64,000 nt of DNA from an uncultured Monoglobus sp. Its GTDB lineage: Bacteria; Bacillota; Clostridia; Monoglobales; Monoglobaceae. Shown here in pieces: positions 2,434 to 63,011 of the stretch. The stretch's first letter is position 1, and every line of letters starts with the position of its first letter. The stretch lies in assembly GCA_947630135.1 (NCBI GenBank), contig CANRGH010000004.1:1-64000 (forward strand), in the 5' to 3' direction. Under the pieces are notes generated by a model. The model was not told where the DNA came from, ran no database searches, and saw only the letters and a program-made list of their open reading frames with translations. The position numbers and the translations under genes are program-made.

Positions 2434-2444
2434 AAATAAAAACC

Positions 2445-2483
2445 GGCGGCCCGGCGCAGATAAAGCGCGGGGCCGCCATTTTT
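2445..2483. terminator. Bidirectional terminator between transketolase and amidase genes
   Basis: Stem GGCGGCCC (2445-2452) with GGGCCGCC (2470-2477), flanked by ATTTTTG on the right and an A-rich stretch on the left, so it can stop transcription in both directions between two convergent genes. Confidence 0.75.
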
Positions 2484-2486
2484 GAT

Positions 2487-3362
2487 TTATTCGCCGTAGA
2501 GTCCGGCGCGGTCATTGACTGTGTAGAGCCTGAGCTGATCCTCGGTGAGGTTCAGCTTTCCGTTCTCGTCGCCCTTTAAAAAGCCCTTTGTCACGAGCTT
2601 TGTGATTGTGGGAACCGCCCACGCGGGCATGTTCTCGTCAACATAGTCGTAGCGCTTGAGGCTGTTCTTGATCCCGTCAATATCGTTTTTGTTGCTTTGG
2701 ATATCGACTCCGATCTCATTTATTATCTTGTCCTGACTGTCATTTTTCGCCTTAAGCTCATCATATTCTTTGCTCATAAGCTCCTCCTCGCTTTCCGAAT
2801 TATACTCGACCCCGAAATACTCGCACACGCCCTTGCAAATCGCGGCGGCGCATTTTTCGCGTCCCGATGACGACGCCAAAAATTTGTTGTCGTCATAATT
2901 GTCGATAAACGCCGTTTCAACCAAAATCGCGGGCATGCTTGTTCGGGTCAGCACCGCGAAATTGGCGGTCTTGACGCCTCTGTCATATCTTCCGGTCTCG
3001 TCCGGCATATGGTTCTGCACAAGCCTCGCCAGCTTCCCGGCGTTCCCGCCCGTGCTGACGCAGTAGGTCTCGCAGCCGTATGCCTTGGTGTTGGCGGCGT
3101 TGCAGTGAATACTGATAAAAATATCCGCGCCCCAGTCGTTCGCCGCCTGCGCTCTGCCCGACAAACTTGCCGACAGGCCGCCCGCCACCACGTCGGTTAT
3201 TTTCTCGCGGCTCATTCTGACCGAAAATCCGTTTTTTTCGAGCATCGGCTTGAGCCTCTGCGCGACAAGCACCGAAATATCCTGCTCCTTGAGCCCGAAT
3301 CCCGCGGCGCCCGTGTCGGCCCCGCTGTAATTATGCCCGGGGTCAATAAAAACCTTTGCCAT
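2487..3362 (-). CDS. N-acetylmuramoyl-L-alanine amidase (Amidase_3), phage-type endolysin
   Basis: 291 residues without a signal peptide. Residues 3-185 form a zinc Amidase_3 domain that cleaves the MurNAc-L-Ala bond of peptidoglycan. Zinc ligands His10 (DPGH), Glu26 and His86 (ISIHCN) and the catalytic Glu149 (LVETAF) are all present. A coiled-coil-like linker (about 195-235) and a C-terminal segment (PAWAVPTITKLVTKGFLKG) like those appended to phage endolysins follow. The ATG directly abuts the stop of the holin gene upstream (TAA-ATG), giving a classic holin-endolysin lysis pair; lack of a signal peptide fits holin-dependent release. No tail, capsid or integrase genes surround it. Confidence 0.88.
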   Translation of the reverse strand: MAKVFIDPGHNYSGADTGAAGFGLKEQDISVLVAQRLKPMLEKNGFSVRMSREKITDVVAGGLSASLSGRAQAANDWGADIFISIHCNAANTKAYGCETYCVSTGGNAGKLARLVQNHMPDETGRYDRGVKTANFAVLTRTSMPAILVETAFIDNYDDNKFLASSSGREKCAAAICKGVCEYFGVEYNSESEEELMSKEYDELKAKNDSQDKIINEIGVDIQSNKNDIDGIKNSLKRYDYVDENMPAWAVPTITKLVTKGFLKGDENGKLNLTEDQLRLYTVNDRAGLYGE

Positions 3363-3608
3363 TTATTTCACCTCCGATTTAAGATCCGACAAATATTTGT
3401 CCGCCTCTTTTGCCGCCGCGGTGAAGCTGTTGTTCTTCCACCACGCCGCCAGCGAGGCCGCTATTGTGAATATCAGGCTCACTGCCTGATATATATCGTC
3501 GTCAGCCACGTCGATTATTTTGTGTCCGCTCATGGTCATCGCCTGATTGAAAAGGGCGAGCACAAGGGCGATCGTTCTCGCCACCGCGCCCGGGTTCAGA
3601 TCCTTCAT
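3363..3608 (-). CDS. Phage-type holin
   Basis: 81 residues: a short N-terminus (MKDLNPGAVARTIALVLALFNQAM), one membrane segment at about 10-25, a second at about 45-60 (AVSLIFTIAASLAAWWKNN), and a charged C-terminus ending KYLSDLKSEVK. This layout, with the AAWWKNNSFT motif, matches the SPP1/phi-LC3-type holins of Gram-positive phages. It would make membrane lesions that let the downstream amidase reach peptidoglycan. The ATG is preceded by GGAGGTGATTTT. A TATAAT lies 45-50 bases upstream but no convincing -35 element was found. Confidence 0.85.
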   Translation of the reverse strand: MKDLNPGAVARTIALVLALFNQAMTMSGHKIIDVADDDIYQAVSLIFTIAASLAAWWKNNSFTAAAKEADKYLSDLKSEVK

Positions 3609-3678
3609 AAAATCACCTCCTTCGCGTTTCCACGGTTAAATTATATTTGCTTTTAAGTGCCCGCGGGTGCCGTCATTC

Positions 3679-3707
3679 TTGACAAACCGGCAAAAACGGA
3701 GTAAACT
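3679..3707 (+). promoter_or_regulatory. Promoter of hydF
   Basis: TTGACA at 3679-3684, 17-bp spacer, TAAACT at 3702-3707, about 60 bases before the hydF start. Confidence 0.65.
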
Positions 3708-3766
3708 TAAAACGTAAATTATCAAAATATTCAGAGCATGAAACTCATAAAGGATGTGACAAAATA

Positions 3767-4942
3767 ATGGAAAAGACTCCGCTTTCGATGCGAAAGCATA
3801 TAGCCGTGCTCGGCAGCACCAACGCGGGCAAGTCCACGCTGTTCAACAAGCTTCTTGGCCGCGACGACGCGATCGTCTCGGACGTCAGCGGCACCACCAC
3901 CGACCCCGTGATAAAGGCCATGGAGCTTATCCCTTACGGCCCTGTGGCGCTCATTGACACCGCGGGCCTCGGCGACACGACCGAGCTCGGCTCGGTCAGG
4001 ACGGACAAAACCATGAAGGTTTTAAACCGCGCCGACTTAATATTATATGTTCGGGACATCAATTGTGATAATCGGGCGGACAAAACGGATATAAACAAAA
4101 ACACGCCGACAATCGACGTGTTCACAAAATGCGACTTGATTTCAAGCGAAAAGCTGAAAAAAATAAAAGCCGAAAACCCCGGAGCCGTGTTTATCTGCGA
4201 AGGTTCCGACGATGACCTGATTGGCCTCAAACAAAGGATGATCTCGGAGCTTAAAAAGCAGGAGCGCGACGACGGCACGATTATCGGCGATCTGCTGCCC
4301 CGTGGCAGCAACCTTATCCTGGTCTGCCCGATCGACAGCGAGGCGCCGAAGGGCCGCCTTATCCTGCCACAGGTCCAGCTCATACGCGACTGCCTCGACC
4401 ACGGAATGAAAGCCCTCGTCGTGACTCCCGAAACTCTCGGCGAGGCGCTCACGGAGCTCGGGCGCGTTGACCTCGTCGTTACCGACTCGCAGGCCTTTAA
4501 GGCCGTTAATGCGATCGTGCCCGAAAACATCAATCTGACTTCGTTTTCAATGCTGCTGGCCCGCTCCAAAGGAAATTTCGCGCAGCTCCGCGAGGGCGCC
4601 GAGGCGATAGACGGCCTGACCGAAAGCTCAAAGGTGCTCATGCTCGAGGGCTGCACCCACAACACCTCTCACGAGGACATAGGCAGAGTCAAGATCCCGA
4701 AGCTGATCGAAAAGCATATCGGCGCAAGGCCCCGCTTTGAATACTTCACGGGCTACAGCCTGCCCGAAAGCTTTGGGGATTATGACCTTATAATCCAGTG
4801 CGGCATGTGCATGATAAACAAGCAGGAGGTCCGCTCAAGGCTTGCGGCCGCCGCGGAACAGGGAGTTCCGATAACAAACTACGGCATAGCGCTCGCCAAG
4901 CTGAACGGAATTCTGAAAAGAGCCGCCGAGCTGCTGACATAA
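3767..4942 (+). CDS. hydF: [FeFe]-hydrogenase maturation GTPase HydF
   Basis: 391 residues. HydF is the scaffold on which the 2Fe subcluster made by HydE and HydG is assembled and passed to apo-hydrogenase. Visible domains: an N-terminal TrmE/Era-like GTPase (P-loop GSTNAGKS at 16-23, switch GTTTDP, DTAG), a dimerisation domain, and a C-terminal cluster-binding domain with Cys296 in CTHN and the CGMC pair Cys345/Cys348 that ligate the [4Fe-4S] cluster. It stands alone: hydE, hydG and the hydrogenase are not in this window. It has its own promoter upstream and a terminator downstream. It points to a fermentative, hydrogen-evolving anaerobe. Confidence 0.95.
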   Translation: MEKTPLSMRKHIAVLGSTNAGKSTLFNKLLGRDDAIVSDVSGTTTDPVIKAMELIPYGPVALIDTAGLGDTTELGSVRTDKTMKVLNRADLILYVRDINCDNRADKTDINKNTPTIDVFTKCDLISSEKLKKIKAENPGAVFICEGSDDDLIGLKQRMISELKKQERDDGTIIGDLLPRGSNLILVCPIDSEAPKGRLILPQVQLIRDCLDHGMKALVVTPETLGEALTELGRVDLVVTDSQAFKAVNAIVPENINLTSFSMLLARSKGNFAQLREGAEAIDGLTESSKVLMLEGCTHNTSHEDIGRVKIPKLIEKHIGARPRFEYFTGYSLPESFGDYDLIIQCGMCMINKQEVRSRLAAAAEQGVPITNYGIALAKLNGILKRAAELLT

Positions 4943-4972
4943 GCCTGTCACGAAAAAACAAGCAAACAAAAT

Positions 4973-4996
4973 AAGCCGGGGGCTTCCCCGGCTTTG
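4973..4996. terminator. Terminator between hydF and rpmB
   Basis: Hairpin AAGCCGGGG-GCTT-CCCCGGCTT followed by T-rich sequence on the plus strand; convergent genes on both sides. Confidence 0.75.
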
Positions 4997-5015
4997 ATTT
5001 CATAAATCAAAACGT

Positions 5016-5204
5016 TTATACCGCTCTGTCAACCTTACCCGATCTTAAGCATCTGGTACAAACATAAACCTTCTTAGGAGTACCGTCAACAATAGCCTTA
5101 ACACGTCTGACATTGGGCTTCCACATCTTGTTAGCTCTGCGGTGCGAGTGAGACACCTTAATGCCGAAGCTTACGCCCTTTCCGCAAATTTCACACTTTG
5201 CCAT
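5016..5204 (-). CDS. rpmB: 50S ribosomal protein L28
   Basis: 62 residues from the ATG at 5204, which follows AAGGAGGTGTATACAC; the open frame extends 10 codons further upstream but those codons cover the ribosome binding site. The sequence MAKCEICGKGVSFG, VSHSHRRANK and WKPNVRRVK is L28. Two CxxC pairs (CEIC near the start and CTRC near residue 52) form the zinc ribbon of the C+ form of L28, implying that zinc-dependent ribosomal proteins are used. Monocistronic, with a strong promoter of its own. Confidence 0.96.
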   Translation of the reverse strand: MAKCEICGKGVSFGIKVSHSHRRANKMWKPNVRRVKAIVDGTPKKVYVCTRCLRSGKVDRAV

Positions 5205-5252
5205 GTGTATACACCTCCTTGTAAATCTATTCAAATTAATTCAACTCGAAAC

Positions 5253-5281
5253 ATTATAACAGAAAGATTTGCGGATTGCAA
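5253..5281 (-). promoter_or_regulatory. Promoter of rpmB
   Basis: Minus strand TTGCAA (5281-5276), 17-bp spacer, TATAAT (5258-5253). Transcription would start near 5246, some 40 bases before the gene. Confidence 0.75.
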
Positions 5282-5345
5282 GTACTTTTTTTAATTTTTT
5301 TGAAATTTGTTGTATTTTTACAATTTTCCTCACCGTGAACATATT

Positions 5346-5362
5346 TGTAACATGAATGTAAC
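5346..5362 (+). promoter_or_regulatory. WalR-like direct repeat upstream of the SLH gene
   Basis: TGTAAC-ATGAA-TGTAAC is an exact fit to the WalR (YycF) consensus TGTWAH-N5-TGTWAH. It ends 10 bp before the -35 element at 5373, a position suited to activation. WalRK controls cell-wall homeostasis genes in Firmicutes. Binding is inferred from the match only. Confidence 0.5.
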
Positions 5363-5372
5363 AAGAGATTAA

Positions 5373-5400
5373 TTGATATTAAATAAATGAATGTTATAAT
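5373..5400 (+). promoter_or_regulatory. Promoter of the SLH surface protein gene
   Basis: TTGATA (5373-5378), 16-bp spacer, TATAAT (5395-5400); start near 5407, leader about 35 nt with AGGAGGG before the ATG. Confidence 0.7.
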
Positions 5401-5442
5401 TGTATCATAAAGTCGAAAAATACAATATACAGGAGGGTTATT

Positions 5443-7800
5443 ATGAAAAACCACAAGATATTTGCAAAAAGAGCGTTATGCGGAGTCCTCTCCGCCGCGC
5501 TTGTCTCATTCGGCGCATACACCGCGGCCTTCGCGGAAAACGAGAAGGAGATAACACCGGCGGCGGAACAAACCGAGGGAACCGCCACTCCTTCACCCTC
5601 TCCGGAGGCAGCGGCGACCGAGGCTCCCGAGGCGACTCCATCCGCCGCGCCGACCGCGGCTCCGTCAGCCACGCCCGAGGCAGCCAAGCTTACCCTGCGC
5701 GTTAACGCCAAGGTATACAAGGTTTCAAACGACGTTTACAGAGTCGTGTTTACCACCGGCTCATCCCTGCCGTCGATAACCGGATTTGAGTTCACCGCAC
5801 TGTTTGACGACGCGGTTGTGACCGGCTCGGATATAGGGGACAGCCTTAAAAATAATGGCGAGTTCTCGCGCTCTGTCAGAGACGACAACGAAATAACATT
5901 CACATGGAAAAACGGAGAAGCGCCGATAAGCGGAGCGGTTACGCTGTGCAGCGCCACAGTCGAGACAAAGTCAACGATAAAGGCCTCAAACCTCTCGCTG
6001 AAAGGCTTCACCGCCGTTCCGTCCGACGGCTTGCAGCTTGAGATCACTCCCGACCTCGGCGTGAGCGACGGCGCGGATGTTCCGACGCTCTCGGACGAAG
6101 AGAAAAAGGTCTATGAGAGGCTTATCGCCGTTCCCGCCGCGGACTCCATGAGCTTTTTCAAAGACGACGGCACGATTTACAACGACATATCATCGCTTTA
6201 TCTCGAGCCCGCCAACAGCGCTCTCACGGCTTACGACACCCTCACGGACTCGTCGCAGGACAACGTGGACAATATGCTTAAAGCCAACGGCAGCTCGATA
6301 ATCTCCGTCAACGCTGCTTACAAAACGGCCGAGGCGTTAAACAGTGCTCTCGGAGTCATGAAGCTCAACGACGCATACTACGGAATTTCGGACAGCGACA
6401 CAGCGGTCAATTACGAATATCTTAAGCGCACATCCGAAAAGACGGGGCTCACAGCTCCCGCTTATCTTGAGAACGCTCCCAAGGCATACGCACAGTTCGA
6501 CGAGGCGGTAAAAAAGATCGGCGAGAACAACAAATATGTTGAGTCGGCGCTCGCAAAAATATCAGACAGCACCTACGAAAACTATAACACGCGCATACTG
6601 TCTCTTTCAACTCAGCTTGCATCGGCCAACCGTTTCAGCGAGCATCCGTATTATGCAGAATATCTTGACGCCGTTACTGCTATCGCAAACGAGCTTTACA
6701 GCGACGTTAACACCAATTACAGCGGCTCATACAAGGAATATATGCTTAAGTCGATCAATGATGTTTTAAGCGAGATAAAGAGCGGCAGCGAGGTCCTGAA
6801 AAACCTGCCGACGTTTGAGGCGCCAAAGAGCTTTACGATCGGCCGCGACGTTGAGGTAAAAGTGACCCGCGCCATCGCTCTTGAAAATCAGAGCGCGACC
6901 GCGTATGTTGACACCTACAAAGATGGCGCGCTTGTTCAAAGCGGCAGAGAAAAAGCATTCGCAGACGGTTCAAGGTCCGTTGTCGTACAGGTTTCGACAA
7001 ACGTTAACACCTTGGGCCGCAACGGCGGAACGGTAGTTTTCAAAGTCTATTACAAATTCGGCGAAAGATCATACTATCTCGGCGAGCAAAGCCTGACGGC
7101 ATACGCTCCCACGGTTGACACCACTTTCGGCACAAACGGCAGCGGCGGAGGCTCGAGCGGCTGGGGCAACGATGGCACCGGAAACGGCAGCGGAACCACA
7201 GTTCCCGACAACAGCGACCGCCCGACCCCGGTTCCCGAATCCACGCAAAATCCCGGCTTCGCCGACGACAACCCCTACACCGACATTGACGGCTATGACT
7301 GGGCAAAAGAGGCGATAATCGGCTTGACCAACGCGGGCATAGTCAACGGCATGGGCGACGGAGAGTTCAATCCTGCCGGAAACGTCACACGCGAGCAGTT
7401 CTGCAAAATGGTCGTTCAGATGTACGGCCTTGACGCCACTGACACAGCCACGACGTTCAGCGACGTTGACACCTCGGCATGGTACGCGCCATATGTCACG
7501 GCGGCGGTCAACGCGGGCTTCGTGCAGGGCCAGTCGGACGACTACTTCGGCATCGGAGAGTCGATCATGCGCCAGGACATGGCGACGATCCTGTACAGAG
7601 CGATCGACCTCAAGGGTGAAATGGCGGAGCTTAACTTCACCGACAACGACAGCATCGCCGAATACGCCAAAGACGCGGTTTCGGAGCTTGTCGGCCTCGG
7701 CATAATGAACGGCTACGAGGACGGAAGCTTCAAGCCCCGCGGCAGCGCCACAAGGGCCGAGGCCGCAAAGGTGATCTGGGGAATATACAACATAAAATAA
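5443..7800 (+). CDS. Secreted surface protein with cohesin/CBM-like domain and three SLH repeats
   Basis: 785 residues. A signal peptide (to about 31, cleavage after AFA) leads into a Thr/Pro/Ser/Ala linker with repeated TPSPSPEA/ATP units (about 40-80). Residues 85-200 look like a beta-sandwich of the cohesin/CBM superfamily (alternating strands, ITGFEFTALFDDAVV), a weak call. A long helical region (about 215-465) and a second beta region (470-575) follow, then a Gly/Ser linker and three SLH domains (about 605-785: NPYTDIDGYDWAKEAI, TFSDVDTSAWYAPYV, FTDNDSIAEYAKDAV) that anchor to secondary cell-wall polymer. Likely an abundant S-layer or envelope scaffold protein. Monocistronic between a WalR-like box and a terminator. 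Confidence 0.85.
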   Translation: MKNHKIFAKRALCGVLSAALVSFGAYTAAFAENEKEITPAAEQTEGTATPSPSPEAAATEAPEATPSAAPTAAPSATPEAAKLTLRVNAKVYKVSNDVYRVVFTTGSSLPSITGFEFTALFDDAVVTGSDIGDSLKNNGEFSRSVRDDNEITFTWKNGEAPISGAVTLCSATVETKSTIKASNLSLKGFTAVPSDGLQLEITPDLGVSDGADVPTLSDEEKKVYERLIAVPAADSMSFFKDDGTIYNDISSLYLEPANSALTAYDTLTDSSQDNVDNMLKANGSSIISVNAAYKTAEALNSALGVMKLNDAYYGISDSDTAVNYEYLKRTSEKTGLTAPAYLENAPKAYAQFDEAVKKIGENNKYVESALAKISDSTYENYNTRILSLSTQLASANRFSEHPYYAEYLDAVTAIANELYSDVNTNYSGSYKEYMLKSINDVLSEIKSGSEVLKNLPTFEAPKSFTIGRDVEVKVTRAIALENQSATAYVDTYKDGALVQSGREKAFADGSRSVVVQVSTNVNTLGRNGGTVVFKVYYKFGERSYYLGEQSLTAYAPTVDTTFGTNGSGGGSSGWGNDGTGNGSGTTVPDNSDRPTPVPESTQNPGFADDNPYTDIDGYDWAKEAIIGLTNAGIVNGMGDGEFNPAGNVTREQFCKMVVQMYGLDATDTATTFSDVDTSAWYAPYVTAAVNAGFVQGQSDDYFGIGESIMRQDMATILYRAIDLKGEMAELNFTDNDSIAEYAKDAVSELVGLGIMNGYEDGSFKPRGSATRAEAAKVIWGIYNIK

Positions 7801-7807
7801 GACAATT

Positions 7808-7845
7808 AAAAAAGGAGGCTGAAGATCGTTTCAACCTCCTTTTTC
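7808..7845. terminator. Bidirectional terminator between the SLH gene and folC
   Basis: AAAAAAGGAGG (7808-7818) pairs with CCTCCTTTTT (7835-7845). The A/T-rich stem base gives a U-run in either direction. Confidence 0.8.
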
Positions 7846-7860
7846 GCGCGCAAATTCGGG

Positions 7861-9120
7861 TCAGCCTATATCTTTGTAAAAATACAGGCTGCCCAGAATA
7901 ATCAGCGGAATATTCGCGGCCTTCGCCGCGCCGAACGCCTTTGAATATCCGTCCTTCACGCTCAAGCACGGCTCGCTCGGAACGCCGAGCGTTTTGAAGC
8001 GTTCCGCCAAAGCCTCCGCGTCAAGCGAGCGCGGATTATCGGGCTTGATCGTGAAAGCCTTTTCCGCAAGCGGAGCGACAATTTCCGTCATGCGCTCGTA
8101 GTCCTTGTCACGCATAACGCCCATTAGCAGCATGACCCTGCCGCCGAAATACGCTTTCACGCTCTCGGCGGCTTTTTCCATGCCCATAGGGTTATGCGCG
8201 CCGTCATAGATCACCGTCGGATTTTCACCGAGAAGCTCAAATCGGCCGGGATGCGTCAGATTTTTCATTCCGTCTCTGACGGCCTCGTCGCTGATCTCAA
8301 TGCTTTGTCCGCGGAGCGCTTTGACCGCGGTCAGCGCAACCGCCGCGTTGCGCGGCTGGTATGTTCCGAGCAGAGGCGTAAACACGTCGCTCAATTCTCC
8401 GAAATCAAAGCGCGTTCCGCGCAAGCCGAGGCTTCTCACGCGCATTTTTTCAAAATCGACCAAAGCGAGCGGCGCCTGCCTTTGCGCGCACTTGTTTTGC
8501 ACAACCTCAAGCGCCTCGGGCGCATGCCCGCCGAACACAACCGGGCAGCCGCGCTTTATTATTCCCGCCTTTTCGCGGGCAATATCTTTTATCGTCGGCC
8601 CCAGATATTCCGTATGATCAAGCTCAACATCGGTTATCACCGACAAAAGCGGCCGCCTCATCACATTTGTTGCGTCAAGCCTTCCGCCCATTCCCGCCTC
8701 GATTATGACGATATCACAGTCCCTTTTGGCAAAGTACAAAAACGCCATGGCCGTCAGCGCCTCAAACTCGGTCGGACCTTCGCTCATTGCCCGCTCCGCG
8801 TCACGTATTCTGCCGCAGAGCGAGTAAAACTCATCTTCGGGAACGCTTTGCCCGCCTGCTCTTATGCATTCGGGCGGCGAGACGATATACGGCGAGGTGA
8901 AAAGCCCGACGTTAAAGCCCGCCGCGAGAAGAATGCCCTCAAGCATTCGGCAGACCGAGCCCTTGCCGTTGGTCCCTGCGACATGTATTATTCCGAGCCT
9001 GTCCTGCGGGTTTTCAATAATTCCCAAAAGCTCTTTTATCCGCTCGAGCCCGGGCCTGCTGCCCCTGCCGCCGAGGCTTTTGAAATATTCCGCGGCATTT
9101 TCGCTCATAACGATCATCAC
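7861..9120 (-). CDS. folC: Bifunctional folylpolyglutamate/dihydrofolate synthase
   Basis: 419 residues, normal for FolC. It adds glutamate to dihydropteroate or tetrahydrofolates with ATP, retaining folates in the cell. Seen: the Mur-ligase P-loop VAGTNGKGSVCRM near residue 48-60, GLFTSPYIVSPPECIR (folate loop), EAGMGGRLDATNV, HTEYLG, and the C-terminal YDGAHNP ligand loop. It follows folT by three bases on the same strand and shares its THF riboswitch, so folate uptake and polyglutamation respond together to the folate pool. Confidence 0.95.
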   Translation of the reverse strand: MMIVMSENAAEYFKSLGGRGSRPGLERIKELLGIIENPQDRLGIIHVAGTNGKGSVCRMLEGILLAAGFNVGLFTSPYIVSPPECIRAGGQSVPEDEFYSLCGRIRDAERAMSEGPTEFEALTAMAFLYFAKRDCDIVIIEAGMGGRLDATNVMRRPLLSVITDVELDHTEYLGPTIKDIAREKAGIIKRGCPVVFGGHAPEALEVVQNKCAQRQAPLALVDFEKMRVRSLGLRGTRFDFGELSDVFTPLLGTYQPRNAAVALTAVKALRGQSIEISDEAVRDGMKNLTHPGRFELLGENPTVIYDGAHNPMGMEKAAESVKAYFGGRVMLLMGVMRDKDYERMTEIVAPLAEKAFTIKPDNPRSLDAEALAERFKTLGVPSEPCLSVKDGYSKAFGAAKAANIPLIILGSLYFYKDIG

Positions 9121-29730: not shown

Positions 29731-29759
29731 TTGACAAATCCCTCGTACGGGTGTAAGAT
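29731..29759 (+). promoter_or_regulatory. Promoter of the BlaI-M56 operon
   Basis: TTGACA (29731-29736), 17 bp, TAAGAT (29754-29759), start near 29766. Confidence 0.8.
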
Positions 29760-29765
29760 AGATTT

Positions 29766-29783
29766 AGAGTACTTAAGTAGTCT
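29766..29783 (+). promoter_or_regulatory. Candidate BlaI-type operator
   Basis: AGAGTACTTAAGTAGTCT is an 18-bp dyad with only one mismatched pair, centred on the perfect palindrome TACTTAAGTA (29770-29779). It sits on the predicted transcription start, where a BlaI-family dimer would block initiation (autoregulation). Known BlaI/MecI operators are comparable short dyads with TAC/GTA arms. Confidence 0.6.
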
Positions 29784-29805
29784 GATTTTTCAAAGGAGGC
29801 ATACT

Positions 29806-30189
29806 ATGAAAGGCCATGAAAATTTACCGCAGATCTCAACCTCTGAGCTCGAGGTTATGAACGTTCTGTGGAGAAACGGAAGCATGACAAGCGCGGAGAT
29901 CGTTGCCGAGGTGTCAAAGGTCAGCGAATGGAAGCCCAAAACCATCCACACGCTCATCAAACGCCTCGCGGCAAAAGGCGCGATAACGGCGGAAAAGATC
30001 AATCTTCACTCCAACATCTACTCCGCGGCGGTCGATGAGGAAGAGTACAGACAGCACGAGGCGGAGACCTTTGTCAAAAAGATGTTCGGCGGCTCAGTCA
30101 ACAAGATGCTGATCGGCTTTATCAAAAAAAACAAGCTGACCGGCGACGACATCGAGGAACTGAAAAACATTCTTAAAGGAGATCAATGA
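29806..30189 (+). CDS. BlaI/MecI/CopY-family transcriptional repressor
   Basis: 127 residues from ATG 29806, behind AAAGGAGG; an upstream in-frame extension would cross the promoter and operator. The winged helix ISTSELEVMNVLWRNGSMTSAEIVAEVSKVSEWKPKTIHTLIKRLAAKGAI matches BlaI, and the C-terminal helix (about 80-127) forms the dimer and the cleavable site in family members. It is expected to repress its own operon until cleaved by or through the M56 protein encoded next, whose ATG overlaps its stop. Confidence 0.93.
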   Translation: MKGHENLPQISTSELEVMNVLWRNGSMTSAEIVAEVSKVSEWKPKTIHTLIKRLAAKGAITAEKINLHSNIYSAAVDEEEYRQHEAETFVKKMFGGSVNKMLIGFIKKNKLTGDDIEELKNILKGDQ

Positions 30190-31832
30190 TGTTTGTTGAG
30201 CTGTTATTCAGTTTTTGCCTCACCGCGGCGCTTTACGGAACGGTTTTGGGCGTTGTTGTGTATCTGCTCAACCTTTTGCTCAAAAAACAGATCCCGGCGC
30301 GGTTCAGGTTTTTACTGTGGATGATCACGGCGCTCAGGCTGCTGATGCCGGTCGCGCCCGAGGCGAGGTTCAGCCTGTTTAATTTTCTTCCCGCACCGCT
30401 CGCGGAGGGCGTCAGCGCGCAAACGGCGCCCGCGGCGGGAACGGACATATTTTACATAGCCGCGCTGATCTGGTTGTGCGGCGCGGCGGCGATGCTGCTT
30501 CGCGCGTTTGTTCCTCAATTTTTGCTGCGCCGCGAACTTACAAAGCTTCAAAGATACGACGACCCCGTCTTTGAGGAAACCCTGAAGGAGTGCCGTGAAA
30601 AGCTCGGAATACGGCGCGAGATCGTTCCGGTGATCCAAAGCAGGATCGACACGCCCGCGATATTCGGATTTTTTCGTCCGAGACTGCTGCTGCAAAAGGA
30701 TGTTAAATCCATGCCGCGCGACGAGGTTCGGCACATAATTCTTCACGAGTGCTGCCATGTGAAGCGGCATGATGTGCTTAGCGGCTGTCTGCTGTCTATC
30801 GCGCGGGCTGTTCACTGGTTTAATCCGCTCGTTTGGCTGTTTGATTTTAAGGCAAGGCAGGAAATGGAAATAGCGGCTGACGAGAAAGCCGTGGGTTATA
30901 TGAAAAACGACGAGCGAATTGACTACGGAATGACGATCATCAACACCGCCGCGAAATTTTCACTCTACAGCCCGAGCGCGGCCGTGGGAATGTCGGGCGA
31001 GAAGCGCAATATAAAGCGCAGGATAAAGAGCGTGGCCGCATTTAAAAAACCGGCCATGATATTCAGAATTCTCGGCGCGGCGCTCGTCATAGCCGCCGGC
31101 TGCACCTGTCTGACAAACGCCAAGCTGCCCGAGCCGATAAGGCCCGAGAGCAACGAGCTTTACCGATTAATAGTCTCACACCGATTTAGCCCGGATACCC
31201 TACAGGCAAACCGATCCGCGGACGCCGCTGATACGGCGCGGACGGATAATATCCGCCCCGAAAGCTCCGACCGATTTGTGGAAAGCGTCCCGAACGCTCC
31301 GCGAACAAGCACGGCGGCGAGTTCAGACCGAACCGTTTTGGGCAGCGAGCCGAACCCCTCCGCGCAGCCTCCGGCGACGGTCATAATAAACGACGCGGGG
31401 ATCTATTCGTCGGCAAGCCAAAGCGGCACTGCGGAAAACGCCGCGGAAACCCCCGAAGAAAACGGCACCGTATTTTTCACGGACGTTGACGGCGGAGCTT
31501 TGACCGCGAAGGCGAACCGCCTGAAACCCGGCACCGACTATAACGACGTTAAGTCCGCCGTCGAAGCTGACGGCGGACAACCCGACGAGGCCGAGATCGG
31601 CGCGGGCGAGACAAAAACCGTCGAAAAGGAGCCGACGGACGGCGAAGTCAGCGTTTATCTGAACTCGGAAAGCTCCGACATGGTCTCGATCGACGTGTAT
31701 GACAGCGATCAGCCCGCGGGCAGGCTGTTATTAAAACCCAGGACATTCGCCTCATACACAGTGTCGGGCCTCAAAGGGCTTTGCCGCCTCGTCATAAGCG
31801 CCTCCGCCCCGACAAAAGCGTTGATCTACTAA
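30186..31832 (+). CDS. M56 (BlaR1-like) membrane metalloprotease with novel C-terminal outer domain
   Basis: 548 residues. Three N-terminal membrane helices (about 5-27, 36-55, 82-105), the zinc protease loop with HECCH at 187-191 and a downstream Glu region (ARQEMEIAADEKAV), and a fourth helix (about 290-310, IFRILGAALVIAAGC). Beyond it, a Ser/Thr/Pro-rich linker (about 320-430) leads to a C-terminal domain (about 435-548) that is not a penicillin-binding domain but resembles the secreted protein encoded next: both share KPRTFA-YTV-GL and end in KALIY. By analogy with BlaR1, an outside signal would activate the protease and inactivate the BlaI partner; the signal is unknown. A copy of the genome's palindromic repeat lies in frame at 31239-31259. 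Confidence 0.88.
   Translation: MMFVELLFSFCLTAALYGTVLGVVVYLLNLLLKKQIPARFRFLLWMITALRLLMPVAPEARFSLFNFLPAPLAEGVSAQTAPAAGTDIFYIAALIWLCGAAAMLLRAFVPQFLLRRELTKLQRYDDPVFEETLKECREKLGIRREIVPVIQSRIDTPAIFGFFRPRLLLQKDVKSMPRDEVRHIILHECCHVKRHDVLSGCLLSIARAVHWFNPLVWLFDFKARQEMEIAADEKAVGYMKNDERIDYGMTIINTAAKFSLYSPSAAVGMSGEKRNIKRRIKSVAAFKKPAMIFRILGAALVIAAGCTCLTNAKLPEPIRPESNELYRLIVSHRFSPDTLQANRSADAADTARTDNIRPESSDRFVESVPNAPRTSTAASSDRTVLGSEPNPSAQPPATVIINDAGIYSSASQSGTAENAAETPEENGTVFFTDVDGGALTAKANRLKPGTDYNDVKSAVEADGGQPDEAEIGAGETKTVEKEPTDGEVSVYLNSESSDMVSIDVYDSDQPAGRLLLKPRTFASYTVSGLKGLCRLVISASAPTKALIY
31239..31259. repeat. Palindromic repeat copy inside the M56 coding sequence
   Basis: CGGACGGATAATATCCGCCC is one base from the intergenic core (GGGCGGATAATATCCGCCC). 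It encodes part of TDNIRPES in the linker between the last membrane helix and the outer domain, where extra residues are tolerated. Confidence 0.6.
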
Positions 31833-31850
31833 CGCAACACGTTTATCGGT

Positions 31851-31900
31851 GTAGGACACTAGCCCACATGCCGCCGCGGGCGGATAATATCCGCCCCTAC
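31851..31900. repeat. Dispersed palindromic repeat, module 1 (GTAGG...CCTAC)
   Basis: 50-bp unit beginning GTAGG and ending CCCCTAC, with the 19-bp palindromic core GGGCGGATAATATCCGCCC at 31878-31896 and the lead-in GCCCACATGCCGCCGC. The same 50-bp unit is found at 59235-59285. Confidence 0.8.
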
Positions 31901-31920
31901 AACGTTTTGCGCGTTTTATC

Positions 31921-31974
31921 GTAGGGGACGACGACCTCGGCGTCCCGTGACCGGATATGGGCATCCGGCCCTAC
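31921..31974. repeat. Dispersed repeat, module 2 (GTAGGGG...CCCTAC)
   Basis: 54-bp unit with terminal inverted GTAG/CTAC and two internal dyads (GGGACG...CGTCCC and CCGGAT...ATCCGG). It follows module 1 by 20 bases. Sequence related to its GGACG/CGTCCC part occurs at 62850-62880 and 62920-62975. Confidence 0.6.
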
Positions 31975-32040
31975 AAATAAAATTTAATCATTTAACTATT
32001 ACAACTTAACATTGATTATTGTACAGAAAGGATGATTGAT

Positions 32041-32484
32041 ATGAAAAACTCTAAAATCAAACGGACGTTCGCGGCGCTGTCCGCGGCGGCGATCCTCGCG
32101 GCAATGCCCGCGGCTTACGCCGAAGCAGCGAACGTCTCGCTTACCCCGAGCGTTGCCGCAGCTGCAAACAAGCTGCCGCCCGGCACCGGTTTTGACAGCA
32201 TGACGGCGGCCCATCCGACGGCGTGCACCGCGATATTGACCAAAGGCGAAACCACGGTTACAAGGGCCGCGGACGAAAACGGAAAAATCACGTTTTATTT
32301 AAGCTCGGAAACGGCGGACATAATCAAGATAAACGTCTCAATCGACCCCGCGCGCGAAAAAGTTGCAAGCCTCTGCGCAAAGCCGCGAACCTTCGCGGAA
32401 TACACGGTTGAGGGCCTAACGCCCGGCGGGAACTATTTAATTACATTCAGCGCCGAGGCAAACGGCAAAGCGTTGATTTACTAA
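32041..32484 (+). CDS. Small secreted protein homologous to the outer domain of the M56 sensor
   Basis: 147 residues from ATG 32041 (GAAAGG nine bases before; the ATG at 32032 touches that site). A signal peptide (MKNSKIKRTFAALSAAAILA, cleavage after AYA) precedes a single domain of about 115 residues. It aligns along its whole length with the last 115 residues of the M56 protein: KLPPGTGFDSM with RLKPGTDYNDV, KGETTVTRAADENGKITFYL with AGETKTVEKEPTDGEVSVYL, and KPRTFAEYTVEGL with KPRTFASYTVSGL; both end KALIY. Predicted all-beta. It could be a decoy, ligand or co-receptor for the sensor. No named family recognised. Confidence 0.75.
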   Translation: MKNSKIKRTFAALSAAAILAAMPAAYAEAANVSLTPSVAAAANKLPPGTGFDSMTAAHPTACTAILTKGETTVTRAADENGKITFYLSSETADIIKINVSIDPAREKVASLCAKPRTFAEYTVEGLTPGGNYLITFSAEANGKALIY

Positions 32485-32500
32485 CGAAAGGATGATTGAT

Positions 32501-34645
32501 ATGAAAAACTCAAAATTAAAACAAACGATCGCGGTGCTGTCCGCCGTTGCAATGCTTATGGCAATGCCCGCGGCTTACGCCGATTATTCACTTGATGATA
32601 TATCGGCGATCCCCAACCTGACCGATGTCGCTCAAACAGACTCCGAGCGGGTCCCGAATTACAACTACATGATATATTGCGGTGAAAACGCAAAATTCGG
32701 GGTTGAGCATCAGGGCGAAGTTGTTCTTGAACCCGTCTGGGACGATATCAATTTCGGCAACAACTATTTCGGCGGCGAGTGCGTCAACCTGATGTCCGCC
32801 AAGGAACTGGCAGATGTGCGCAAGCTTGACTCCGTCTGCTTTGACACGGTAGCGGCCGGAACGAACAGCAGTCGGTTTGCGACCTTTGATGAGATCGCAA
32901 AATATCGCGACAAAGTCAGAGTCTCCGTAAAGAAAGACGGCAAATGGGGCTGCGCGGACGTCAAAACCGGTGAGCTCGTTATTCCGTGCGAGTACAAAGA
33001 AGCGGCGATAGACTATAACAAAATAACGCTTCTGACCGCGGATGACAAATATGCCGTGTCCGACCTCGACGGAAACATGATTGTCGGCCCGATATACGAC
33101 TACGTTCAAAGCGGATACTCGGGCAGCCTGACCGTTGTCGGCCGAGACTACGGCTACACGGTGATCGACGAAGCGGGCCGCGAGCTTCTTCCTCTTTCCG
33201 AGAACGAGCCGCAGATAATCGGCGGCAAATACATCACGCTGACGCGTGATGACGGTATTACCGAGGTATATTCAACGGACGGAAAAAAGCTGTTTGAGAA
33301 AAAGGCGAGCGGTATCCTCGATTACAGCGATGACATATTTGTTTTCAACACGAGCGCGTCGGAAAACGACAGCGATACCCCCTTTGAGATCTGCGGCGCT
33401 GACGGCACGACTGTTTTAAGCGACAGCGGCAAATACTCTTCCGAGATTCTGCTCAGTACCACAGCGTCTTACACCTACATCGACAACCTGTATCCGTTCA
33501 GCGATCCCGACGCCAAAGACTTGCCGACCGTTATTGCCATGAGAAGCTCTGAACGCGATGAAAACGGCATAGGATATTACGATTATTACGACACAAGCGG
33601 AAATCTGCTTTTGAGCGGATATGAAGCGCAGGGAGGCATATGCCCGTCGGCTGTTTTGATAACGATCTCCAAAAACGGTAAGATCGGTTTTGCTGACAGA
33701 TACGGCAATATCGTGCGCGAGCCGCAATTCGACCGCGTGAGCGGCCCGATCGTCACCAAAAACTGCAAAAACTATTTTATGTACAACGACGGCAGTTTAA
33801 AAGAACTGCCCGACGTGGGCGATCTGCAGGCATACGCGGTCACTGACGGAGAAAAAATTTATTACGAGATAAGCGGCGATTTTCATAACGACGGGGAGTA
33901 CAATATGGCCCTGATGGACTCAAACGGCGATTTCATACTTCCTCCGATCTTTCACAGTATGAGCATTTCAAGCGGCGGCCTTATGCGGCTTTATATAAAC
34001 CGGAACAACGGTGTGGATAGGTACGCCGCGAAGCTCGCCGACGATCCAAAGCCCGTTGACATCACGCCGTATATCACAAATTCGACGCTTGACGAGAGCG
34101 CGCAGTGGTTCGTGGATAACGGATATGTGACCGGCGCGACCGCCGAGGAGCTCAGAACAGGCGAGGCGACCACCCGCGCCGAGTTTCTGGCGCTGATCTC
34201 AAGAATAGACGGCTGGCAGATAGACCAAAACGCGCCCGCCGCCTTTCCCGACACCGAGGATCATTGGGCGAACGGAATAATATACGAGGCGAAAAACCGC
34301 GGTCTGATAACCGCGGACGAGAACGGGAATTTTGATCCCGACGGCGTTATCAATTACCGCGGGGAATATGAAATTTTGCTCCGTGAAATCGGCCTCTACG
34401 ACGAGATTTCGGCATCGGCGAACGCTGATCTTTACGGCAATGACGCCTTCGGGCGGTATGTGAACGTCAGCCACAGCAGCTCTGATCCGGTTCCGAGGCT
34501 GATAACCTTCAGAATCCTCAAAGGCTATAACGACGAGGGCAGATACTATCAATTCGATCCGAACAAATTCGGCAGCGAGGACGCATTCGCGGACGCTACT
34601 TTAATATCGACCTCAGACAGCACCGATACATATTTCTTTAACTAA
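32501..34645 (+). CDS. Secreted WG-repeat protein with C-terminal SLH-like domains
   Basis: 714 residues from ATG 32501. The ribosome binding site and signal peptide region nearly duplicate those of the preceding gene (GAAAGGATGATTGAT then MKNSK, ending MPAAYA). The body (about 40-520) is a beta-propeller-like array of WG-type repeats (KDGKWGCADVKTGELVIPCEY, DDKYAVSDLDGNMIVGPIYD, KNGKIGFADRYGNIVREPQFD). The C-terminus (about 525-690) holds one or two SLH domains (AQWFVDNGYVTG, FPDTEDHWANGIIYEAKNRGLI, GNFDPDGVINYRGE), placing it on the cell wall. Likely the surface output of the BlaI-M56 operon. Ligand unknown. Confidence 0.85.
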   Translation: MKNSKLKQTIAVLSAVAMLMAMPAAYADYSLDDISAIPNLTDVAQTDSERVPNYNYMIYCGENAKFGVEHQGEVVLEPVWDDINFGNNYFGGECVNLMSAKELADVRKLDSVCFDTVAAGTNSSRFATFDEIAKYRDKVRVSVKKDGKWGCADVKTGELVIPCEYKEAAIDYNKITLLTADDKYAVSDLDGNMIVGPIYDYVQSGYSGSLTVVGRDYGYTVIDEAGRELLPLSENEPQIIGGKYITLTRDDGITEVYSTDGKKLFEKKASGILDYSDDIFVFNTSASENDSDTPFEICGADGTTVLSDSGKYSSEILLSTTASYTYIDNLYPFSDPDAKDLPTVIAMRSSERDENGIGYYDYYDTSGNLLLSGYEAQGGICPSAVLITISKNGKIGFADRYGNIVREPQFDRVSGPIVTKNCKNYFMYNDGSLKELPDVGDLQAYAVTDGEKIYYEISGDFHNDGEYNMALMDSNGDFILPPIFHSMSISSGGLMRLYINRNNGVDRYAAKLADDPKPVDITPYITNSTLDESAQWFVDNGYVTGATAEELRTGEATTRAEFLALISRIDGWQIDQNAPAAFPDTEDHWANGIIYEAKNRGLITADENGNFDPDGVINYRGEYEILLREIGLYDEISASANADLYGNDAFGRYVNVSHSSSDPVPRLITFRILKGYNDEGRYYQFDPNKFGSEDAFADATLISTSDSTDTYFFN

Positions 34646-34653
34646 GCAATACA

Positions 34654-34691
34654 AAGCACCGCTCCGGCTAAAAAGCCGAAGCGGTGTTTTA
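34654..34691. terminator. Bidirectional terminator between the WG-SLH gene and the anti-sigma gene
   Basis: Stem GCACCGCTCCGGC with GCCGAAGCGGTGT around a TAAAAA loop, T-run after it on the plus strand and A-rich bases before it. Confidence 0.85.
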
Positions 34692-34703: not shown

Positions 34704-36869
34704 TTATTTTGTCTTTTTGGTGCTGTCGGTTATCATAACCTTAACGTCGTCGCCGCTGCCGAGCGAAACCAGAGTGTAATCAAGGTTCTTTTCCTTGAGA
34801 TACTCGGTGAACGCGGGATAATCGTCCTTACTGAAATACAGTGTGACAGCGCCGTCCTTATCGATCTTTGAGCAATCCGCCATGCCCGAGTTCATTATCT
34901 CATCAAGCGCGTCTTTGTCTTTGATCTCGCAGCTTATTACCGAAGCTTTGTCCATATCAGCGGACTTTTTCGCGTATTCCTCTGTCTCGCCGCTACTGTT
35001 GCGCTTGCGCTCGGACTCCTTCACGGTTCCGGGACGCAGAGTAGCCTTCGGACCTGGTGATGTGCTCGGGCCAGGCGAGCCGCTCGGTGCGGGTGACGCG
35101 CTCGGCCTTGGCGTTGCCGTCGTCTTAGGTACCTCCATGGGCTTGGGAGCCGCCGTCGGCGCCTGAGTGGGCGCGGCTTTCGGCTCAACCGTCGGGATCG
35201 TGATCGAGGCCGCCTGCGCCTCGGGCTCGGTATATGTGAACGTGTCGGGAGCGCTTCCTCCTGCGCCGCCTCCCGCGACAGTCACGCTGTCGGGAGCCAC
35301 ATATGTGGGCGACGTAATGCCCGTCGCTATGTCCGGAAGAATTATCTTCGGCGTCACATAGGGCGTTTTCGTGGGCGCGGGTGTGGGAGCCGCCGCTCTG
35401 ACCGTACTTGACGATGTGGTCGGTCTCGGCGTTGCGCTCGTTGTGGTCCTCGTGGTTGTGCCGCTGCTTGTGGTCGTTCTTGAGGTCGTGCCGCTTGTTG
35501 TCTTTGCGGTGCTGCTTGATGAGCTGCTTCCCATAGGCAGAGACGATGATGCGGACGGCCGCGAAGTCGCCTTCGGTGATGTCGCCGAGGCTGATCCCGA
35601 AGCGGGTTTCGGCGTCGCTGCCGACGGACTAGCGGTTGCGCCCGGACGGCTTGTAGACGACGGTGAGTCTTTATCATCATCCTTATCATCCGTCACATAC
35701 TCGTCAAGACCGCTGGAACTGGGCTTCGCTGTGGCTCTCGCGTCGGCGATCGCAGCGTTGTCCGAGAAATTATATATCTCGTCAGACGACTTCATCACCT
35801 GATACAATCCGCTTCCCGCGACTCCGAGAACCAGCACCGCGCTCAAAGCGGCAGGCGCGACAATGCGCCAATTTGCATGCTTTATAACATAATCGGTCTT
35901 ATCCTTGACCGTCTCAAAGAAGCCGCGGAGCTTATCCGCCGCTCCTTCGCCGTTTTCGGCCTTTATCGCGGCACGCTCGGCCTTGACTTCTGGAGCTGCA
36001 GCCTCAAGCTTTCCACGAATGCCCGAAAGCAAATCAACCGGGGGCTCGGGAGTCTTGATGTTGTTTAACACGCCGATCATGTCTTTGATCTCATAATATT
36101 CCATGCGGCAGTTTTCGCAGTTCTTAAGATGAGCTTCGATCGCCGCTTTTTCGTCCTCATCGGAGGCGTCCGACACATAATCGTAGAGCAGATCCTTGCA
36201 CTCGCCGCAGCTCAGCGTGTCAAGCTCGCTGTCGGCGCTCTCAAAGCCGGGCAAAGAGTCAATTGTCGGAATGGGGCCCGTGTTGCCCGTAACCTCACTC
36301 TTTTTGATCGGGGCCGCGTCAAATCCGGCGGACATGCCAATACCTCTCTCGATTTCCTCATCATCAAACCGAAGAGTGCTTATGCTCGCCAAAAACTTGT
36401 CAAAGCTTCCATCGGGCAAATCATCATAGGCAACCGCGCCTTCCGGCTCGTCGGCAGTTTCTGATTCGATAACCGTGTCTTCCGGTTCGTCGGCAGTCTC
36501 TGCTTCAATTACCGCGCTTTCCGGCTCGTCGGCAGTCTCTGCTTCGATAACCGCATTTTCCGGTTCGTCGGCATTCTCTGCTTCGATAACCGCATTTTCC
36601 GGCTCGTCGGCAGTCTCTGCTTCGATAACCGCACTTTCGGGCTCGTCGGCAGTCTCAATTTCGATAACCGCGCCTTCGGGTTCTTCGACCGCTTCGGCTT
36701 CCGGTATTTCGATTTTGATGCCGCCGTCCGGCTCCGCATCCGCCTCGAAATCAAAGCGCCTCTCCTCGGTTTTCTCATCCAGATTGATCTGACGGATATC
36801 GTCCGCGATGCTTCCCATCACTCCGCTGTACTTTTCGGCAAGGTCTTTATCCTTCTCAAAATCTGACAT
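34704..36869 (-). CDS. Large membrane anti-sigma factor with zinc-finger (ZAS) and tandem acidic repeats
   Basis: 721 residues, about three times longer than ordinary anti-sigma factors. N-terminal cytoplasmic part with six tandem 13-residue units (VIEAETADEPENA type, about 60-145), then a zinc-finger anti-sigma domain (about 222-275) with CGECKDLL and HLKNCENC supplying the Cys/His ligands, one membrane helix (about 337-357, VAPAALSAVLVLGVAGSGLY), a very long Ser/Thr/Pro/Ala outer linker (390-630), and a compact C-terminal domain (about 655-721). Encoded directly behind an ECF sigma factor, which it should sequester. The outer domain is the likely stress sensor. Confidence 0.85.
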   Translation of the reverse strand: MSDFEKDKDLAEKYSGVMGSIADDIRQINLDEKTEERRFDFEADAEPDGGIKIEIPEAEAVEEPEGAVIEIETADEPESAVIEAETADEPENAVIEAENADEPENAVIEAETADEPESAVIEAETADEPEDTVIESETADEPEGAVAYDDLPDGSFDKFLASISTLRFDDEEIERGIGMSAGFDAAPIKKSEVTGNTGPIPTIDSLPGFESADSELDTLSCGECKDLLYDYVSDASDEDEKAAIEAHLKNCENCRMEYYEIKDMIGVLNNIKTPEPPVDLLSGIRGKLEAAAPEVKAERAAIKAENGEGAADKLRGFFETVKDKTDYVIKHANWRIVAPAALSAVLVLGVAGSGLYQVMKSSDEIYNFSDNAAIADARATAKPSSSGLDEYVTDDKDDDKDSPSSTSRPGATASPSAATPKPASGSASATSPKATSRPSASSSLPMGSSSSSSTAKTTSGTTSRTTTSSGTTTRTTTSATPRPTTSSSTVRAAAPTPAPTKTPYVTPKIILPDIATGITSPTYVAPDSVTVAGGGAGGSAPDTFTYTEPEAQAASITIPTVEPKAAPTQAPTAAPKPMEVPKTTATPRPSASPAPSGSPGPSTSPGPKATLRPGTVKESERKRNSSGETEEYAKKSADMDKASVISCEIKDKDALDEIMNSGMADCSKIDKDGAVTLYFSKDDYPAFTEYLKEKNLDYTLVSLGSGDDVKVMITDSTKKTK
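36438..36686. repeat. 39-bp tandem repeats within the anti-sigma gene
   Basis: About six copies of a 39-bp unit encode the 13-residue motif VIE-A-E-T-ADEPE-N/S-A. Copies differ by a few bases, so the array is a slippage or unequal-crossover product still fairly homogeneous. Confidence 0.85.
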
Positions 36870-36951
36870 GATACCCCTCCTTCCTTAAATAATAGTCCGC
36901 GTATGGTTCAAAAACATAAACGCGCAAGGGCGGAATTGCCCTTTCACTCTA

Positions 36952-37545
36952 TTAGACGAAATATTTCTCAAAAAGTTCCCGATTTTCAAGTAAAATTTCT
37001 CTTAAATTTTTCCGCGCGCGGCTGATGCGCGATTTGACGGTTCCGACTGAGCAGTCAACTATCTCGGCGATTTCGTCATATGACAGTCCGCGTATATCTC
37101 TGAGGATAACAACGGTCCTGTACTCGTCGCTGAGCTCGCTTATGGCGCGGTTCACAACATCCTTTGTTTCAGCCTCCTCAAGCCTCGCGTCAGGCATAAA
37201 ACGCGAGTCGGCCGGCTCGGACGCGAAATTGTTCCCGTCCTCATCATCAAAGCCGCCGAGCGGAAGCGCGGATGCCGCTCTCCTCTGCCTCTTGACTATA
37301 TCGAGGCAGGTGTTTGTGGCAACGCGGTAGATCCATGTGGAAAGCTTGGACTCAAACCGAAACGAGTTGATAGTTTTAAACATCTTCAAAAAAACTTCCT
37401 GCGCCATATCCGCCGCATCATGTGCGTTGTCCGCGTATCTGTAGGAAATGCTGTACACTACCGACTGGTACTCGGTGATTATCTTTTCAAAGGCGTTAAC
37501 GTCGCCCTTTTGCGCTTTTTTGATAAGCTTCAATTCGTCAGCCAA
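36952..37545 (-). CDS. ECF RNA polymerase sigma factor
   Basis: 197 residues from TTG 37545, preceded by GGGGGTGAG; the frame is open 18 codons further but without a site. Sigma-2 region YQSVVYSISYRYADNAHDAADMAQEVFLKMF with FESKLSTWIYRVATNTCLDIVKRQRR, then sigma-4 helix-turn-helix LSDEYRTVVILRDIRGLSYDEIAEIVDCSVGTVKSRISRARKNL. Resembles SigW/RpoE. The anti-sigma gene follows within 85 bases on the same strand. Its promoter here looks like a housekeeping one. Confidence 0.93.
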   Translation of the reverse strand: MADELKLIKKAQKGDVNAFEKIITEYQSVVYSISYRYADNAHDAADMAQEVFLKMFKTINSFRFESKLSTWIYRVATNTCLDIVKRQRRAASALPLGGFDDEDGNNFASEPADSRFMPDARLEEAETKDVVNRAISELSDEYRTVVILRDIRGLSYDEIAEIVDCSVGTVKSRISRARKNLREILLENRELFEKYFV

Positions 37546-37587
37546 ACACTCACCCCCTAATTGTGTCAAAATATCATACCGCTTATT

Positions 37588-37616
37588 AGAATACCACAAT
37601 TCAGCGGATTTGTCAA
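37588..37616 (-). promoter_or_regulatory. Promoter of the sigma/anti-sigma pair
   Basis: Minus strand TTGACA (37616-37611), 17 bp, TATTCT (37593-37588). No clear ECF-type AAC...CGT promoter was seen, so autoregulation is not evident. Confidence 0.65.
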
Positions 37617-46638: not shown

Positions 46639-46657
46639 GGGCGGATAATATCCGCCC
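46639..46657. repeat. Palindromic repeat core copy (46.6 kb)
   Basis: Exact GGGCGGATAATATCCGCCC followed by CCTACGG, between the DUF486 gene and murD. Confidence 0.85.
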
Positions 46658-59234: not shown

Positions 59235-59285
59235 GTAGGGCGGCATGCCCACATGCCGCCGCGGGCGGATAATATCCGCCCCTAC
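59235..59285. repeat. Dispersed palindromic repeat, module 1 copy (59.2 kb)
   Basis: GTAGGGCGGCATGCCCACAT then GCCGCCGC and the exact 19-bp core at 59263-59281, closing with CCTAC. Nearly identical to 31851-31900. Lies between cdaA and proS. Confidence 0.85.
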
Positions 59286-62830: not shown

Positions 62831-62849
62831 GGGTGGATAATATCCGCCC
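62831..62849. repeat. Palindromic repeat core copy (62.8 kb)
   Basis: GGGTGGATAATATCCGCCC, one base from the consensus, followed by a related GGGACGTCGAGGGCGAATGT segment. The gap 62797-63032 holds only repeat remnants. Confidence 0.75.
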
Positions 62850-62992: not shown

Positions 62993-63011
62993 GGGCGGAT
63001 ATTATCCGCCC
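62993..63011. repeat. Palindromic repeat core copy, opposite orientation (63.0 kb)
   Basis: GGGCGGATATTATCCGCCC preceded by CCGTAG: the reverse complement form of the core. Confidence 0.85.

Follow-up and report, generated by a model that had tools for sequence, protein, structure and literature searches.

A BlaI-M56 operon of Monoglobus encodes a secreted homologue of its own sensor domain, a possible feedback decoy

Introduction

BlaR1 has a sensor related to class D beta-lactamases, which are secreted, and in S. aureus this sensor is released from the cell by signal peptidase (PMC9834060). Small BlaI regulons are described in C. thermocellum, where the BlaI_1845 and BlaI_0696 autoregulons comprise few operons, need two inverted-repeat pairs with the motif GACTAT/GTCTAT and have an inferred beta-lactam response; the part of the study consulted here reports neither an SLH output nor a sensor-domain copy (PMC8457756).

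Here we analysed positions 29731-34645 (+ strand) of a 64,000-nt stretch of DNA (the window) from an uncultured Monoglobus sp. The operon found there resembles BlaR1-BlaI (and MecR1-MecI) in having a BlaI repressor, an M56 zinc metalloprotease with a C-terminal outer domain, and autoregulation with paired TAC-N4-GTA operators, a motif that differs from the one in C. thermocellum. Unlike BlaR1-BlaI, it lacks a penicillin-binding sensor, none of its four genes encodes a beta-lactamase, its probable output is a WG-repeat/SLH wall protein, and a free sensor domain, which shows no enzyme signature, has a gene of its own. Such a gene would supply by design the kind of soluble domain that shedding releases from BlaR1.

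SLH domains bind secondary cell-wall polymers. The WG/SLH protein has a signal peptide and an SLH domain like other SLH wall proteins, but it carries only one SLH domain, after WG repeats, and is under a BlaI-M56 switch. Animal soluble decoy receptors such as IL-1R2 and osteoprotegerin are free extracellular domains of a receptor without the signalling part. The free copy in the window likewise corresponds to a receptor outer domain without the signalling part, but it is bacterial, and one operon encodes both it and the receptor, with which it would compete.

Results

Gene content of the operon

Four + strand genes encode a BlaI repressor, an M56 membrane protease, a small secreted protein and a WG/SLH protein (Table 1), and the gene coordinates given in a preliminary description of this DNA held on recheck. 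The BlaI protein has the Penicillinase_R fold (PF03965, 111.6 bits, residues 10-124) and the M56 protein matched PF05569 (183 bits) with an HExxH motif, which bears out the BlaI-M56 signalling operon proposed there; the WG-repeat/SLH protein placed 3' of the small gene was confirmed by WG (57.8 bits) and SLH (29.5 bits) matches, both above cut-off. The BlaI start is best placed at 29806, with an RBS (AAAGGAGG) at 29792-29799, and the TTG at 29731 sits inside the -35 box. The terminator scan showed no + strand terminator between the operon genes, so a single transcript is plausible.

Table 1 Features of the operon and its surroundings (positions in the window)
Feature	Position	Strand	Evidence or remark
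Sigma-70-like operon promoter, TTGACA-17-TAAGAT	29731..29759	+	
BlaI-type operator 1, TACGGGTGTA	29746..29755	+	overlaps -10 box
BlaI-type operator 2, TACTTAAGTA	29770..29779	+	14 nt after operator 1
BlaI-family repressor, 127 aa	29806..30189	+	Pfam PF03965, E 3.4e-32
M56 membrane metalloprotease/sensor, 548 aa	30186..31832	+	Pfam PF05569, E 8.9e-54; HECCH at residues 187-191
LTNAKLP and neighbours	31104..31130	+	directly after last predicted TM helix
C-terminal outer (sensor) domain of M56, residues 438-548	31497..31829	+	
M56-small intergenic region with REP-like palindromes	31833..32040	+	only 16 nt in G006; forward terminator not found
Leader (RBS) + signal peptide, repeat copy 1	32025..32121	+	
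Secreted free sensor-domain copy, 147 aa	32041..32484	+	signal peptide 32041-32121; homology to M56 C-terminus
Leader (RBS) + signal peptide, repeat copy 2	32485..32581	+	
Secreted WG-repeat protein with one SLH domain	32501..34645	+	SLH residues 582-618 = 34244-34354
GC-rich hairpin 3' of operon	34657..34686	.	listed as opposite-strand terminator; T-rich sequence also follows it on the + strand
REP-like palindrome, GGCGGATAATATCCGCC	31879-31895, 31241-31257, 46640-46656, 59264-59280, 62832-62848, 62994-63010		

The REP-like palindrome GGCGGATAATATCCGCC has six copies in the window versus 0.01 expected, one of them in the linker coding region of M56 and one between the M56 and small genes. Adjoining the operon on the - strand (34704-37599) are genes for an ECF sigma factor and for a large, anti-sigma-like zf-HC2 protein that contains acidic repeats; this neighbourhood is retained in only some Monoglobus genomes.

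The M56 residues H187, E188, C190 and H191 were invariant in 15 relatives. Pfam placed no penicillin-binding (class D-like) domain in the outer part, the BlaR1 equivalog model (blaR1_generic) scored 133.9 bits against a cut-off of 400, and there is no beta-lactamase or PBP2a gene among the four operon genes. Identity as a BlaR1/MecR1 beta-lactam sensor thus fails on both the outer domain and the gene content, and the original characterization as an HECCH protease without a penicillin-binding domain is upheld. The LTNAKLP segment is invariant in 15 Monoglobus M56 orthologues and paralogues; its residues appear to resemble a signal peptidase I site, and by analogy it may be comparable to the site at which BlaR1 is shed.

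Homology between the sensor domain and the secreted protein

Residues 438-548 of M56 and 37-147 of the small protein share 38% identity (E 5e-16; E 2e-12 in a genome-wide search), in agreement with the proposed homology of the last ~115 M56 residues to the secreted protein. The pattern L-PGT...G...NG--FYL-S--SDMI...PR-----YT--GL...L-Y is shared by 22 genus sequences, with an invariant last Tyr; these E values and the consistency over the 22 sequences rule out chance similarity. The signal peptide of the small protein, as read from its sequence, covers residues 1-27 with likely cleavage at AYA/EA and shows no lipobox. Apart from this signal peptide the protein consists of the sensing domain only, with no membrane or protease part, as is expected of a competitor of the sensor.

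AlphaFold2 modelled the small protein with a pLDDT of 82 and a pTM of 0.70, as nine strands and one helix. In the full-length M56 model the protease part had a pLDDT of about 30-50 and only the C-terminal domain was usable; its elements follow the same order, so that structure prediction of each domain singly gave no sign of the unrelated folds that would have spoken against the proposed homology. Both domains are predicted to be jelly-roll-like sandwiches. The nearest solved folds are jelly rolls (GOLD, the collagenase binding domain and carbohydrate-binding modules) with best Z scores of 8-9. In the GOLD/PPC/CBM comparison Foldseek gave no E below 1e-3, and these matches are too weak for the family to be named. 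No Pfam or NCBIfam name was obtained for the domain above cut-off. We rejected fn3, for which the best of 29 members had E 0.0017 and the window protein scored 12.1 bits against a cut-off of 25, and Big_1 (16 bits against 34.9).

Linkage, selection and origin of the free copy

Among 12 Monoglobus genomes, that of the window included, seven have the operon with a free copy, which adjoins this M56 gene (M56-A) in 7/7; in one of them (G004) both genes are at contig ends. The predicted linkage of the small gene to an M56 gene is thereby borne out in the genus, and the contrary case of an unlinked small gene is contradicted. A paralogous operon B, which consists of BlaI, M56 with the same domain and a WG protein but has no free copy, occurs in eight genus genomes including the window's own (C1, L033). 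The C-termini of the operon proteins (30186-34645) are aromatic or hydrophobic (KALIY, YFFN; YYFF in operon B) and conserved across species, and could possibly be recognition tails. The window's genome also has a third BlaI-M56 pair (L050 on C1, locus positions 864-2904); its outer domain is unnamed and of another kind, and a gene for a secreted protein lies downstream.

The free copy, the M56-A domain and the M56-B domain form three clades that are about 32-34% identical. The free copy is under purifying selection: its dN/dS is 0.08-0.24 in six comparisons, close to that of the WG protein and below the 0.30-0.41 of the M56 linker, which rules out a recent pseudogene-like copy. Purifying selection acts on both the sensor and the free domain, and the two have in common the fold and a C-terminal strand ending in Tyr. 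This would suit a free domain that binds the sensor domain itself, by homotypic pairing or strand exchange, and either turns it on or keeps it inactive, the operon thereby sensing a protein that it itself secretes. Given that operon B and other clostridial M56-SLH operons are maintained without any free copy, we regard such self-recognition as improbable.

The 16-nt leader and signal peptide of the small gene match those of the WG gene, and in G006 gaps of 16 nt lie both 5' and 3' of the free copy. A tree with outgroups paired the free copy with M56-A (support 95/89), with the other pairings not rejected (p-AU about 0.13). These features suggest that the free copy arose by one tandem duplication, which spanned the DNA from within the M56 domain to just past the WG signal peptide; it would have fused the WG signal peptide to the M56 domain and placed the product between M56 and WG. 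Within genomes the signal-peptide DNA of the two genes is 81-97% identical (58% in the exception, G006) while between clades the mature parts have diverged by roughly one third, which suggests later conversion of the signal-peptide DNA.

The duplication could also have left a secreted by-product with no role. The shared leader and signal peptide, the G006 gaps, which one duplication predicts, and the pairing with M56-A in the tree all fit this account, but an origin by duplication is also compatible with function. The low dN/dS, retention in the genomes of seven species and recurrence of the layout with a different sensor domain (below) disfavour a role-less copy, which we consider very improbable.

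Pairing of domain-bearing sensors with SLH proteins

Profile searches recovered the domain from further genera of the same family, order and class. In the 22 domain-bearing M56 loci outside Monoglobus (L115-L137 without L136), BlaI was upstream in 20 and an SLH protein was the next gene in 21, the SLH assignment having been checked with Pfam in seven of the 22. Forty other M56 loci of the class had BlaI upstream in 38 but an SLH protein next in only two (Fisher p 3e-13 for 21/22 vs 2/40). As a rule, therefore, an M56 sensor with the jelly-roll domain pairs with an SLH protein. The window operon belongs to this BlaI-M56-SLH type, as its M56 protein carries the family's jelly-roll domain and its SLH protein is encoded alongside. 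Searches of open-access papers yielded no account of M56-SLH operons.

The outer part of the receptor varies among these loci. One receptor is fused to LytR-CpsA-Psr and two tandem sensor domains (L137 in G034, 1564-4497) and another to peptidase M23 and Cu-amine-oxidase-N (L121 in G153, 5984-8545). LytR-CpsA-Psr and M23 are wall enzymes, and their presence in two receptor outer parts points to a wall-related cue. A split receptor was found in L120 (G150, 2181-6985), where an M56 protease of 302 aa is followed by two ectodomain proteins with TM anchors, of which one has a DUF4829-like part and the other the jelly-roll domain, and then by an SLH protein.

The SLH gene next to 21 of 22 domain-bearing M56 genes also raises the question of whether the domain docks onto the SLH/WG protein of its own operon. 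The free copy and the SLH protein would then form a surface complex, and M56 would count unassembled SLH protein as an assembly feedback. The pairing of BamE-like sensors (below), as well as jelly-roll sensors, with SLH-type proteins agrees with this, as does the leader and signal peptide common to the small and WG proteins. However, one domain family would have to follow SLH proteins as diverse as WG, Cu-amine-oxidase-N and DUF5050 proteins, and most such operons have no free copy. Docking is possible but, in our estimate, rather unlikely.

A second type of sensor with a free copy

We screened 84 further M56 loci (sets of 40 and 44) for a neighbouring ectodomain copy and found a clear one in two, L160 and L225. 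In L160 (G111, 4289-5107) a lipoprotein copies the ectodomain of the adjoining M56 protein (47% over 233 aa), an arrangement seen in one of six genomes of its family. A partial ectodomain match beside the M56 gene of L177, with transposase-like frames between, was counted as weak. L225 has genes for BlaI, for an M56 protein ending in a BamE-like tail of roughly 50 residues, for an SLH protein and for a secreted protein of 84 aa that shares this tail (E 4e-11 to that of M56); the BamE name is a weak Pfam hint (E 0.065).

After a search of 95 genomes of L225's order, the regions taken contained 18 free copies, with frames about 80-107 aa long. Sixteen share contig and strand with an M56 gene bearing the same tail, and the remaining two are near contig ends. 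Free copies accompany 16 of 19 M56 genes, an overestimate as regions were chosen for matches; among search matches the figure is about 16/26. The free copy lies directly 3' of M56 in nine loci, mostly before an SLH-type gene as in the window. In L264 (G453, 5946-6329) a second small secreted protein with a weak jelly-roll match (E 1e-4) lies between the free BamE-like and SLH proteins.

The jelly-roll and BamE-like domains are not evidently similar in sequence, their lengths and patterns differ, and judged by sequence they are apparently unrelated. The window layout thus recurs in another clostridial family with the BamE-like sensor domain and is not unique. The earlier view that no described BlaR1-like system has this arrangement stands in that none was found in the literature searched, but BlaR1 offers close parallels.

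Promoter and operators

The two TAC-N4-GTA operators lie over the -10 box and just downstream of it (TACGGGTGTA-14-TACTTAAGTA), in agreement with the two inverted-repeat pairs that the small BlaI autoregulons of C. thermocellum need (PMC8457756). In the whole genome the paired pattern occurs only here and in one 30-bp tandem repeat at C1:125601. The repeat was rejected as a distant regulon site, being judged coding from its period only. As the sole intergenic occurrence is at this operon, the operon appears to be its own regulatory output. The operon B promoter of the same genome did not match the paired pattern, and a wider regulon with degenerate operator sites may exist. An operator pair was found 5' of blaI in 6/6 A operons, 5/8 B operons, 10/22 domain-bearing loci, 8/14 BamE-like loci and 10/38 other M56 loci, where shuffling gave an expected number of about zero. 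With the conserved M56-SLH linkage, the paired operators, intergenic only here, make the SLH/WG wall protein very probably the output, as first suggested.

Discussion

BlaI and M56 proteins are of known kinds; as far as we found, the SLH-linked M56 family and an operon-encoded free sensor domain are undescribed in the literature searched. We tentatively interpret the locus as a self-contained envelope-sensing operon whose secreted sensor copy acts as a feedback decoy, and give this somewhat less than an even chance. The computed basis comprises gene content, homology, the predicted jelly-roll fold, operators, linkage, selection and the recurrence with another sensor domain. BlaI would repress the operon from the two operators over the -10 region, and M56 would read a cell-wall-related cue through its C-terminal jelly-roll domain and, like BlaR1, inactivate BlaI by proteolysis. 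This would lead to expression of the WG/SLH protein and of the secreted sensor-domain copy, which has no signalling part. The free domain and the sensor in the membrane would then compete for one ligand, either a wall polymer or the SLH protein, and the free domain would either damp the response or neutralise the ligand, as a bacterial soluble decoy receptor.

Many domain-bearing M56-SLH operons have no free copy, which makes it an accessory of the system. The sensor and free domains are only about 34% identical, so their specificities may differ. The free domain could instead act as an agonist or pair with the SLH protein, and the ligand of the ectodomain could be the SLH protein itself and not a wall polymer.

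More generally, it is conceivable, if a little short of probable, that Clostridia have repeatedly given M56 wall sensors of different folds a secreted duplicate of the sensing domain in the same BlaI operon, as a general class of decoys or companions that tune the expression of SLH wall proteins. The findings extend BlaI-M56 signalling, of which most is known from resistance to beta-lactams, to the control of bacterial surfaces, and the conserved BlaI-M56-SLH operon is a setting where such control is testable. The free copies are a repeated natural experiment in which the sensing domain of a receptor was duplicated as a free protein. If they are decoys, receptor-decoy feedback would be common to bacteria and animals.
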